Positions 15,870 through 25,767 of a stretch of 35,247 bases of DNA are shown piece after piece (position 1 is the stretch's first letter; every line of letters starts with the position of its first letter). Source of the stretch: Opitutales bacterium (GTDB lineage Bacteria; Verrucomicrobiota; Verrucomicrobiia; Opitutales; Coraliomargaritaceae); the NCBI GenBank assembly GCA_030729385.1, contig JANQXM010000016.1:1-35247 (forward strand), in the 5' to 3' direction. The translations under genes and the position numbers were made by a program. The notes below the pieces were generated by a model, which did not search any database, was not told where the DNA came from, and worked only from the letters and a program-made list of their open reading frames with translations.

Positions 15870-16901
<1,032 letters not shown>

Positions 16902-17100
16902 GATACTGGATTAGTTTTGTTTATTGCGTTTAACTTCAGTTTAAGTATGTCTAATGCATGTTTTCCGGATGAGGCGACATCATTTCTTTTGGTGCTGAAT
17001 TTTCAACCTTGGATTTATCTCTAATGCATCTTTTAGACCAAAAGTATCGAATTGCACTGGAAATTCATAATTTTTAGTATAAGTCACCTGGTCCCCTTCC

Positions 17101-18937
17101 TTGTTTATTGTGAATATATTACCCTATAGTTTATCGCGTGTGCTGGCTTTTTTGATGCTCAGCGCTTCGGCTTCTTGGGCTCTGGATGGTGGCAATGATG
17201 TCTATTTTACTGTGCCGTCAGGGCAAACGACAGGTTGGAAGGCTTTTGAGATCATTACTGACGATGATACATTAGGCGGTCTGGCAGTTGGTGGTTTTAC
17301 TTGGGATGCAGGCAATCATGATGACTGGGATGGTTTGGGTGCGTATCGACAGAGCGAAAGTGTGTTATCTGTATTCATCAATCATGAGGTTGGCATTGAT
17401 GTCGCGAACGACATAATCGGCAGCTTTAGTCGTGTGGACTTGGATGTTGCCGCTTTAAAGGACTGGATTGCTTTAGGTATCCCGAATAACACCAATTCTA
17501 ATCAGGTGCAGCGTCCGAGCGCTGTAGTGATGTCTTTTGGTCTGGGTTGGTCGTCGGTTGATTCCGCGAGTGTGACGACGGCATTGGATAATCCTTGCTC
17601 AGCAAATGCGTGGCTTGCCAATACTTTTGGTGAGGGTCGAGGTTTTGCCGATGATTTGTATCTTCTCGGTGAGGAACTCGAAGCGGGCTCGATATGGGTG
17701 ATGGATTTATCCGATAATAAATTGTATCAAGCAGTCGACCTTGGGGCTGGACGTTGGGAAAATGCGACACCGATTGATACCGGACGGACGGATACGATCG
17801 CACTGGTCATTTCAGAAGATCGTGGTCCAGTTCCATCCGATAGTTCTCCTCTCTATTTATATGTAGGCGAGAAGGATCCTGCCGGTAATTTCCTGGAGCG
17901 TAACGGACTTTCTGGAGGTAAGATATACTATTGGGACTGCACTGACCTTGGGGGGGCAATCTGGCACATTTGCGGGGATCTTTAATGGCGGCAATGGGCT
18001 TACCTTGAATGGGCTGTGGGTGACTGATCTTGCAGATGCGGTTCAGTTTTCGAAATGTGAAGACGTCCATACCAATATGAATAAGGACTCTGAGGGGTAT
18101 GGTCGTGAAGTGGCCTTGGCTTGTCAGTGGCAGGGGCTTTTTAAAATTGATTTCAAGTCCACACCTTTCGTGCAGGGTGACATCGGTCCCGGTGCCACGA
18201 GCACTATCACGGTTTTATTAAAAGGGGAAGAGGGGGATTCAGTATTGGGGGATCAAGATAACCTTACTTGGTCTGCGGACGGTAAAATTTATATTAATGA
18301 AGACGAGCCCACGGATGGTAATGTATGGGTGCTCGACCCCGAGGGTATCGAGGCGGGATATGCCACCGGCAACAATACTCCGGATGCTACGCAATATGGT
18401 ATATTGATGGATGTGAATACTGATGGTGAGAGTTCGGGAATCATCGATGTTTCCGAACAATTGGACTATCAGCCCGGCAGCTTGTTTTTAACGGTTGCGC
18501 AATCTGACACGCTTAACGGTAATCAACTCGCACTGTTAGTTTCGCCGAATGCAGCACCACTTTACTCGGTTTATGATGATTGGACGGCTAGTTATCCGGC
18601 ATTAGATACCGAGGCAAAGCGCCTCGACACGGCTGATCCGGATATGGATGGCCTCTTGAATGCGATGGAATTTGCTCTCGGGTTGTCGCCTGTGCAGGCA
18701 AATACGACTTCGCCAATTATATTTAATCCCAGCGCCTCGACGCTTAGCTTCACGCCGGTTCGTTCATTGAACGTGGTCAATTACCATGTTCAATATACGC
18801 ACGACATTACACTTGGATTTACTACTGCGAATTCCATCGTCGTGAGGGCTGTTGATATTGACGCATCGGGAATTGCCACGGTAACTCTACCTGCAGGCGA
18901 TCAACTCTTCTACCGCTTGTGCGTGGAAGTTTACTAG
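17101..18937 (+). pseudogene. secreted PhoX-like (DUF839) protein, split by a frameshift
   Basis: Two frames (17101-17985 and 17948-18937) join into one protein of about 610 residues if the seven-G run at 17950-17956 is read as six. Part 1 has a signal peptide (LSRVLAFLMLSASASWA) and blocks such as VFINHEVGID and DLYLLGEELEAG. Part 2 carries DNLTWSADGKIYINED and VWVLDPEG, the repeating pattern of PhoX/DUF839 proteins, which are calcium-dependent phosphatases in studied cases. The C-terminus has an Asp-rich DPDMDGLLNAMEFALG segment and a beta-rich tail seen on secreted verrucomicrobial proteins. Part 2 has no usable start of its own. The start is TTG (17101) or GTG (17110). Unshifted, the product stops after about 290 residues. 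It could be a true mutation, phase variation, slippage or a sequencing error. Confidence 0.75.
17950..17956 (+). other. seven-G tract at the frameshift point
   Basis: A homopolymer of seven G within the PhoX-like gene. Removing one G gives CTT GGG GGG CAA and restores a continuous frame. G-runs of this length are known slippage sites in replication, transcription and sequencing. Confidence 0.85.
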
Positions 18938-18944
18938 CGCGCGA

Positions 18945-20393
18945 TTAATCGTATCGGCGACGTAGATTCGTTGGTAAGATGCCGAGTTCTTCGCGATACT
19001 TAGCAACCGTGCGACGAGCGATTTTGATGTCTTTATCTTTGAGTAAATTAACGATGCCTTGGTCGCTATAAGGCTTTGATGGGTTTTCTTCTTCGATGAA
19101 GTGACTGATCATATCTTTGATCGTCTTGTTCGACACGGATTCGCCGCTGGCTGAGGTGAAGCCAGGTGTGAAGAAATACTTGAAGGCGAAGACGCCGTGC
19201 GGTGTGCGGATGTATTTGTTGGCGATTGCCCGGCTGATGGTCGTTTCGTGCACGCCCACTGTTTGAGCAATGGTGTTCATCGTCAATGGGCGCAGTTTAG
19301 AGACGCCTTCTTCGAAGAATTCGTTTTGAAAACTGAGGATTTCTCGAGTGATTCGCTCAATGGTTTGTTGGCGTTGCTCGATTGAGCTGATGAGGAACTT
19401 CCCCGAGCGCATGCGCTCTAGCATGTAGTCTTTCTCTTGTTTGCTGAGGGTTCCCTTCGCCAGTAAGTCTTTGTAAACGCCGCTGATACGTAGGCGCGGT
19501 ATGTAGTCGTTGTTTAAATCGACTTTCCACTCGCCGTATTCATCTTTGAATACAGTGACGTCCGGTTCGATGACCGCGTTGGAGTCGGGGCTGAAGCGCT
19601 TCCCTGGTGCGGGGTCGAGAGTGGAGATTTCTTCGATCGCGGCTTGGACGTCGTCGGTTGTCGTTCCGGTCTTGCGGCAAATGTCGGGGATGCGGCGTCG
19701 CACGAGTAGGGGGAAGTAGTCGCGAAGTATGCGAGATGCGAGTGATGTGCCGCGACCACGCAATTCCAATTGTGTGATCAAGCAATCTTGCATGTCCACT
19801 GTGCCGATGCCTGGGGGGTCGAAGGTTTTGAGTGTTTCGACGCACTTCTGCACGGTGCCATAAGGTGTGCGGCTGGTCAGTGCGATGTTGGAAACTGTTT
19901 CAGTTAGGTAGCCGTTGTCGTCTATACTACCGATGAGGTAGAAGAGGGCTTCGCGCTCTTGCTTGGAGCAGTCGGTCAGTTCTGCTTGTTCAATGAGATG
20001 CTGTTGCAGTGAGACGCCCTGTGTGAGGGAGTTCATGAAGTGGTCGCGGCGCTCTTCGTCTTCAGTGGTGTGGGTTTGTCCGCTGTTCTCTTGAGCAAAT
20101 TGCTCGCGCACATCTTCGCTCATTTTGTCGAGGATGCTATAGTCATCGACGTCGAAGCTAAGCTCTTCGTCGGCGTCGCGCTCGTCCTCGGTCGTCGTTT
20201 CACGTTCTTCTTCGACGCTAATGCTGTCGATGGAAAGTTCTTCCAGTAGCGGGTTGGTTTCCAGTTCTTCGAGGATGGAAGTGCGTAGTTCTACCGCGGG
20301 CGCTTGTAGAATTTTAAGTGAATTGCGTAGTTGAGGCGCTAAAACTAGCGACTGCGTTTGTTTTTGAACCTGCTGAAAACCCTGTGAGCTCAT
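18945..20393 (-). CDS. rpoN: RNA polymerase sigma-54 factor
   Basis: A full-length sigma-54 of 482 residues. Region I at the N-terminus is Gln/Leu-rich ([19 protein letters not shown], about residues 12-30) and contacts the activator ATPase. An acidic region II follows (about 45-115). The core-binding region and the helix-turn-helix ([20 protein letters not shown], about residues 365-385) come next. The RpoN box [14 protein letters not shown] is near the C-terminus and reads the -24 element. GGAG precedes the start by 11 bases, one of the few ribosome binding sites here. The kinase gene lies 16 bp upstream on the same strand. Its stop is only 7 bp from that of the convergent PhoX-like gene. 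Confidence 0.96.
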
Positions 20394-23649: not shown

Positions 23650-25767
23650 TTAGAGCCCTTGGGACTTTCGCTCGGCGCGCTGAGCGTCTTCCATACGATT
23701 CAACTGACGGTAAGCCAAAGAAAGGTTATACCATGCGCGGTAGAACTGTGGTTCCATGGCTACGGTCTCTTCGAGATAGCCAGCGGCGCGTTCCAGGTCG
23801 CCAGCTTCAGCGGCGAGTAGTCCGAGAGAGTATGGGAACATTGGATTTTCAGGTGCGAGCTCCCATCCGGTGTTGAGATAACGAGCCGCGGGGTCATTCA
23901 TTCCAGCTGAGCTCAACAGTATGGCTGCTTGGTGATACATCTCCGGATTGAGCGAATCCAGCAGCACGGCACGAACGACATACTTTTGCACATCGGCAGG
24001 GTTCCTATCGCGTGCTGCTTTATTGGCCATAAGGAGTAGGCTTTGCGGGCGATCCATATTGAAATCGATATAGTTCTGCCACTCTTCTGCTACTTGCGCG
24101 TCAGGGACATCAAGTCCTTGTGAGGCGAGCGCCATGGAAGCCGCGATGCGGACGCTGTGAGAGTTGTCGCCGAGTTTGTCGATGATGACTGCTTTGTTTT
24201 CAGGCATTTGTCCGAGTGAACGGACTGCCCGACCACGGACCAGGGCGCTTTCGTCGTCCAACAACGTTTTGAGGTGAGTGACGACTTCGATGTTCGGCAG
24301 ATAGCTTGCGAGAAGTCCTGCGTAGGTGGCTCGCCATGCGGGGATTTCTTCTCCTTCGGCGACGGCTAATAGTGCCGGCATCCCTTCCGGTTCCATCGCA
24401 TAGGCGGCAGCGATCGCACGTGCGCGCTGGCGTTGGCGGCTTTGAGCGAGTTTCTCGCCATACCATTTCTCAGCATATTCGACTGCCCAGTCGACGCTTT
24501 CGTCGCTATGACATTTACTGCAGGCGTTGGGGATCCCGAGTTCTTGAGTCATCAGTGGATCGGGGGAGTGGAAGCCGTGGTCTGCCCGATCATCGATTTG
24601 CATATAGGTTGTTTGAGGCATGTGGCATTCGACACAGCGATTGCCGGTGCTGCCTGCTGGGTGAAAACTGTGCTCGGTTGGCTTGATGATCGGTGCCTCC
24701 ATTGTGCCACCAGCTTCATGGCAGCGCATGCAGAGCATGTTATTTTCTACGGGCAAAATGTGCTCCAAAGTGTGCGGGTTGTGGCAGTCCATGCAGCTCA
24801 CTCCAGCGTGTGCCATGCGGCTCATTTGGAACGATCCATAAACAAAGTCTTCGTCGATAATTTGTCCGTCCGGGTGGTAAAGGTCGGGCTGATCCGGAAG
24901 CGACAATGTGAAGTGGTCGTCATATGCATCACCGAATTTATATGCATCTGCGGTTAACTGATCGCGACGAGAGTGGCAGGTTGCGCAGTTTTGAATGGTG
25001 TGCACTTTGTCCGGAATCGGTTTACTGGTATAGTTTTCTGATTGAGCTTCGGCTATGTGATCTTCGAGTCCGGTATGGCATTCGGCGCAGGCGATGCCTT
25101 GTTGGATCCAATTTGGATCGTAGCTGTTGCTCTCAAAATTAAATCCTTTTTGGTATTCGGTGGTGTGGCAATAAGCGCAGTTTGAATTCCAGTTCATACC
25201 TTGACCGGTCCAGTGTCCCCACTCGCCAGGCATGCGGTCTTGCCCCGCATACACATCCAACCAGCGGTCTTCTATAACGTCGTAGGTGGCGCTGATGGTT
25301 TGGAACTTATTGCCTGGTAACTCGGCAAGGTATTGGCGTAAGGGCGTGTAGCCGATCACACCGACAAGGTCATAGACTAGCGGGCTTTCACCTTCCTTGA
25401 GCACGCGAAGCTCAAATTTCCCGTTGTTTTCGGCGAGTTCGTAAGTGACGCCGGATTCCTCAACATAGCGTGCCGGGGTGAAGGCGCCGCGATCATGCTC
25501 GATCGAGACTGGGCGGTTGGCTTTGGCGTGATGACTCTTTTTCCAATCGGCAACTGCGTCTTCATGGCACGTGGCACATGCGTCGGGACCGACGACCGCT
25601 TGTCGTGCTGGATTATGAGAGATCGCAAACGCGGGTATGTCGCTACGATTGCTTCCTTTAGTGGGCTCGTATCCAGCGTCGCTGGAATCACCGCATCCGG
25701 AGAAAAGGCAGATGAGACTAGCAAATGCTACAGCGATAGTGCCGGAGCGTAATAAATGGAAAAGCAT
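23650..25767 (-). CDS. octahaem c-type cytochrome lipoprotein with HEAT-like and TPR repeats
   Basis: A 705-residue exported lipoprotein; the signal ends LICLFSGC, so the Cys would be lipidated. Eight CXXCH haem-binding motifs lie in the first two thirds: CATCH, CAYCH, CAECH, CATCH, CMDCH, CMRCH, CVECH and CSKCH. The cytochrome part resembles the c554-like multihaem family. The C-terminal third switches to helical repeats: HEAT-like units (LLDDESALVRGRAVRSLG) then TPR units (NPMFPYSLGLLAAEAGDLER, YRAWYNLSLAYRQLNRMEDA). The repeats suggest docking to a partner. It should act in the periplasm in electron transfer. No haem-export or reductase genes are nearby. The substrate is unknown. Confidence 0.88.
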   Translation of the reverse strand: MLFHLLRSGTIAVAFASLICLFSGCGDSSDAGYEPTKGSNRSDIPAFAISHNPARQAVVGPDACATCHEDAVADWKKSHHAKANRPVSIEHDRGAFTPARYVEESGVTYELAENNGKFELRVLKEGESPLVYDLVGVIGYTPLRQYLAELPGNKFQTISATYDVIEDRWLDVYAGQDRMPGEWGHWTGQGMNWNSNCAYCHTTEYQKGFNFESNSYDPNWIQQGIACAECHTGLEDHIAEAQSENYTSKPIPDKVHTIQNCATCHSRRDQLTADAYKFGDAYDDHFTLSLPDQPDLYHPDGQIIDEDFVYGSFQMSRMAHAGVSCMDCHNPHTLEHILPVENNMLCMRCHEAGGTMEAPIIKPTEHSFHPAGSTGNRCVECHMPQTTYMQIDDRADHGFHSPDPLMTQELGIPNACSKCHSDESVDWAVEYAEKWYGEKLAQSRQRQRARAIAAAYAMEPEGMPALLAVAEGEEIPAWRATYAGLLASYLPNIEVVTHLKTLLDDESALVRGRAVRSLGQMPENKAVIIDKLGDNSHSVRIAASMALASQGLDVPDAQVAEEWQNYIDFNMDRPQSLLLMANKAARDRNPADVQKYVVRAVLLDSLNPEMYHQAAILLSSAGMNDPAARYLNTGWELAPENPMFPYSLGLLAAEAGDLERAAGYLEETVAMEPQFYRAWYNLSLAYRQLNRMEDAQRAERKSQGL

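Follow-up and report, generated by a model that had tools for sequence, protein, structure and literature searches.

Frameshifts confirmed by homology were surveyed with GeneTack in genomes that came from older sequencing technology (PMC3711429), where those occurring as singletons were put down to sequencing errors or recent indels and those occurring in clusters were considered candidates for recoding or phase variation. Poly-G contingency genes are known from Campylobacter and Neisseria: Neisseria homopolymer runs are predominantly variable from a length of 8 upwards (PMC5084427), and the Campylobacter G/C tracts demonstrated to vary measure 8–13 (PMC3025981). At the level of transcription, A/T runs were the only homopolymers with insertions in the transcriptomes of E. 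coli and Buchnera (PMC5574713).

Here, we describe a PhoX-like gene that is split between two frames at a run of seven Gs. It lies in a 35,247-nt stretch of DNA (the window, which is the whole stretch analysed) from a member of the Opitutales. The gene is like the homology-confirmed singletons of the GeneTack survey (PMC3711429) in having one frame switch, intact homologs and no clustering with other broken copies, and no difference from them is evident. The explanation that we favour, with a probability of roughly one half, is a recent one-base inactivating indel in an accessory gene for a secreted protein.

The frame break at the seven-G run

The run occupies positions 17950–17956 of the + strand, and the reading frame changes there (Table 1). 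The first frame is open from a TTG at 17101 (or a GTG at 17110) to a TAA at 17983–17985; its start codons are GTG or TTG only, with no usable ATG. The second open frame spans about 17867 to 18937 and overlaps the first around the run. Codon usage tracks the first frame before the tract (0.135 log-odds per codon) and the second frame after it (0.144), and all remaining frames contain stops and have negative codon log-odds. Past the tract, the first frame adds nine out-of-frame residues (AIWHICGDL) before its stop, so that the product of the assembled allele is 291–294 aa.

The junction was pinned using the closest relative (L088, from genome G479), a single open frame of 627 codons that is 54% identical and has no G run at the junction codons. 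Where L088 has GGKVYNWDPEGSSTNGTLSGIFSGGNGTSVNG, the window has GGKIYYWDCTDLGG in frame 1 and QSGTFAGIFNGGNGLTLNG in frame 2; across the junction stretch, GGKVYNWDPEGSSTNGTLSGIFSGGNG of L088 corresponds to GGKIYYWDCTDLGG (frame 1) and then QSGTFAGIFNGGNG (frame 2) of the window. This alignment confines the frame switch to ~24 nt that include the seven-G tract. In this genome, a 24-nt stretch picked at random would overlap a G/C run of at least seven with a probability of ~0.001.

Table 1. Features of the split gene and its two neighbours (window coordinates).
Feature	Coordinates	Strand	Description or evidence
fba, class II fructose-bisphosphate aldolase, left neighbour	15870..16901	-	Pfam PF01116; transcribed away
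First half	17110..17985	+	Begins at GTG (or TTG 17101); signal peptide and N-terminal portion of the PhoX-like body
Second half of PhoX-like body	17957..18583	+	Another frame; profile match, alignments, relative-rate test
C-terminal domain, ~125 aa	18548..18937	+	Shared with many other large proteins of the class, at their ends
rpoN, sigma-54 factor, right neighbour	18945..20393	-	Pfam PF04552/PF04963/PF00309; convergent

Relatives of both halves were sought in 373 genomes of the order, and the 26 relatives found there are continuous across the junction, which makes the break a singleton. For a profile comparison, we used nine relatives, leaving out both the window and L088. The upstream half matches positions 39–268 of this profile (E = 3e-24) and the downstream half matches positions 309–497 (E = 2e-10), while 0 of the 40 shuffled sequences that served as controls gave a match. 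In addition, the second half keeps ED 320–321, DN 386–387 and ED 400–401 (numbering of the joined protein), which are invariant in a four-sequence alignment. The two halves are consecutive parts of one ancestral gene, as the sequence-only reading had proposed; the intact relatives and the profile matches to both halves bear out its view of one gene split at the seven-G run.

These relatives also bear on two other accounts of the frames. In the first, transcriptional slippage or programmed ribosomal frameshifting would yield the full-length protein, and the overlap of the open frames around the tract speaks for it. However, none of the relatives shares the frame switch or the tract. The earlier suggestion of slippage is also unsupported by the transcriptomes of E. 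coli and Buchnera, in which G/C runs did not produce insertions and deletions avoided G (PMC5574713). We consider this account highly improbable. In the second, the frames would be two separate genes, the latter translated from TTG 17948 or a later start. While the second frame does have this TTG at the junction, its product would be without a signal peptide, and the nearest ATG, which overlaps the stop (17985), lies in the third frame and is closed after 7 codons. No stand-alone counterpart of the second half was seen in the order, and the two-gene account is barely credible. Slippage, programmed frameshifting and two genes were all rejected.

Family membership and the C-terminal domain

The joined protein, which was used solely as query in searches and alignments and for one fold prediction, has the architecture anticipated from the sequence alone: a signal peptide, a PhoX/DUF839-type body and a C-terminal domain frequent in the class. 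The label "DUF839-like" stands by way of relatives. The joined protein is homologous end to end with proteins (L033, L034, L036 and L095) that pass the cut-off of the PhoX family model (Pfam PF05787, DUF839; Pseudomonas fluorescens PhoX, PDB 3zwu), and there is a weak profile match to the PhoX structures 3zwu/4amf (E = 0.04). The label does not stand by direct match, as neither half nor the joined protein gave anything against PF05787 at E up to 1. L088 likewise has no match, and both proteins are too diverged for this model. They further differ from the PhoX family in the extra C-terminal domain, and a phosphatase role is putative. Wider searches of Pfam and NCBIfam with the halves and the joined protein gave no match, and a single-sequence structure prediction of the joined protein reached a pLDDT of 30, too low to be of use. 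Its own genome gave no match to PF05787, and two scans of a genome-contig collection confirmed no relative.

The last 125 residues form a domain that stands at the very end of other proteins in 31/32 cases checked and that occurs in 7 of the 9 genera of the family. A class-wide search using the window/L088 alignment, in which the matches are dominated by this domain, hit 158 of 384 genomes. The domain itself has no match in Pfam or NCBIfam. It contains a calcium-loop-like motif (D-D-DG-N-E), followed by a stretch ending in F-R-x-V, and the same extreme C-terminal domain is borne by L002, L003, L004, L028, L141 and others. It may represent a sorting or anchoring domain that has yet to be described.

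Gene neighbourhood and the state of the downstream half

Between fba and rpoN, the PhoX-like gene is the only one on the + strand, and it ends 7 nt before the rpoN stop codon. No other gene is affected by the break, as both neighbours are transcribed on the other strand. Promoter and terminator scans at the gene gave nothing above chance. In two same-genus genomes (sister species), rpoN and fba adjoin at distances of 228 and 162 bp with no gene between them, and ~110 bp in front of fba can be aligned with one of the two. The spacer here (16902–18944) carries a 1.8-kb gene for a secreted protein, and the protein body found no match in the other searched genomes of the family. Considering that the spacer is empty in the sister species and that the body is without a match elsewhere in the family, the gene is dispensable and its loss is to be expected; it is sporadic and was probably acquired. 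Elsewhere in the window, positions 23650–25767 encode a large protein in which several haem-binding cytochrome c domains occur together with HEAT and TPR repeats.

To describe the downstream half, the window and L088 were compared in relative-rate tests against eleven outgroups. Changes found only in the window are not in excess after the tract (1 of the 11 tests gave p = 0.03, in the opposite direction). Among 33 downstream columns that are conserved in relatives, the window alone loses 0 and L088 alone loses 4. This lack of excess change, with normal codon usage after the shift, agrees with the earlier observation of no other damage. As the downstream half is without decay, the break is recent, reversible or artefactual, and the single lesion at the G tract upholds that three-way statement of the sequence-only reading, although its reversible member, phase variation, is itself unsupported (see below). 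A single lesion together with intact homologs elsewhere is also the pattern of a recent pseudogene allele.

Origin of the one-base change

As a baseline for the tract, we used a sample of 700,957 bases in 41 stretches including the window (~27% of the genome). This sample holds 27 G/C runs of at least seven, with 31 or 14 expected from simple base-order models. Fourteen of these runs lie inside continuous frames, and a gene is broken only by the run in the window. Frameshifts were detected with a simple homology-free codon model, which registered the break in the window as a brief gap separating two frames and not as a direct switch; with this model, no further homopolymer-linked split genes were seen in the 701 kb, and all other frame changes close to homopolymers look like ordinary gene boundaries. 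Separately, a seven-C run (L104:6660–6720, at G000:C6 ~86685) lies in frame in the part of a lipoprotein-like gene that encodes its signal peptide (MIQRLLPPLFVVLFAGC). That gene is intact, and slippage at that place would switch a surface protein.

An assembly or consensus error, in which the assembly misstates the tract length of a gene that is intact in the organism, is a real though doubtful possibility. The second half looks fully maintained, as such an error would leave it; the intact downstream half fits a recent indel and an assembly error alike. Gaps of 10 and 100 Ns show that the assembly is scaffolded. Over 12.1 kb, two of its contigs (C66 and C70) share 99.87% identity and align without gaps, differing by 16 mismatches. 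This pair (L122 of G000:C66 and L125 of G000:C70, in opposite orientation) represents strain variants in one bin or a recent duplication, so a strain mixture is possible. The GeneTack survey also speaks for an error and against a recent indel, as homology-confirmed singletons are often errors and are expected to be so more often than true indels (PMC3711429). Against an error, other long homopolymers in the 701 kb break no genes. Homopolymer errors are thus not general in the assembly, since the window's run is the only one there to break a gene. The N-gap scaffolds point to short reads, a kind of data with no raised rate of homopolymer indels (PMC3025981). Finally, the broken gene is dispensable, whereas errors should strike core genes too.

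Phase variation was the other proposal made from the sequence alone: a contingency gene whose tract length changes reversibly, switching a secreted protein on and off. Like the poly-G contingency genes of Campylobacter and Neisseria, this locus carries its G run within a frame that encodes a secreted protein. The homopolymer lies at the break, the downstream half is intact, and the possible strain mixture (C66/C70) would suit a variable locus. Unlike in those genes, the run is of 7 rather than at least 8, shorter than the variable lengths, and it is not conserved, being absent from the relatives. There is no genome-wide set of such loci, and this one is known from a single assembled sequence. 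The count of long G/C runs shows no clear excess over the two expectations, with most of the runs in intact genes, and the genome encodes MutS and MutL family proteins. On these grounds the proposal was not upheld, and we consider it unlikely. It would be a long shot that this free-living verrucomicrobium uses the seven-G tract to switch a newly acquired secreted PhoX-type protein on and off, reversibly and at a low rate, with a population mixed for phosphorus scavenging.

We therefore favour a genuine recent indel, because no other homopolymer breaks were found and because the gene is dispensable. By this explanation, a sporadic and probably acquired gene of the PhoX superfamily, located between fba and rpoN, would have taken a one-base slippage indel in its G run, and we infer that the organism's DNA does carry this indel and that the consensus is not in error. 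Translation of the assembled allele would halt nine codons past the tract. The predicted product is a truncated secreted protein that lacks both the second half of the body and the C-terminal domain, and it is very likely inactive. The allele would be an ordinary loss-of-function allele, either fixed or segregating, and too young for further decay.

If things are as they seem, the case is an ordinary one of little significance: an accessory secreted gene caught early in its loss, or else an error through which annotation misses a functional gene. Should the tract prove to vary in the living population, homopolymer phase variation would be extended to free-living Verrucomicrobiota and to a phosphorus-acquisition family.
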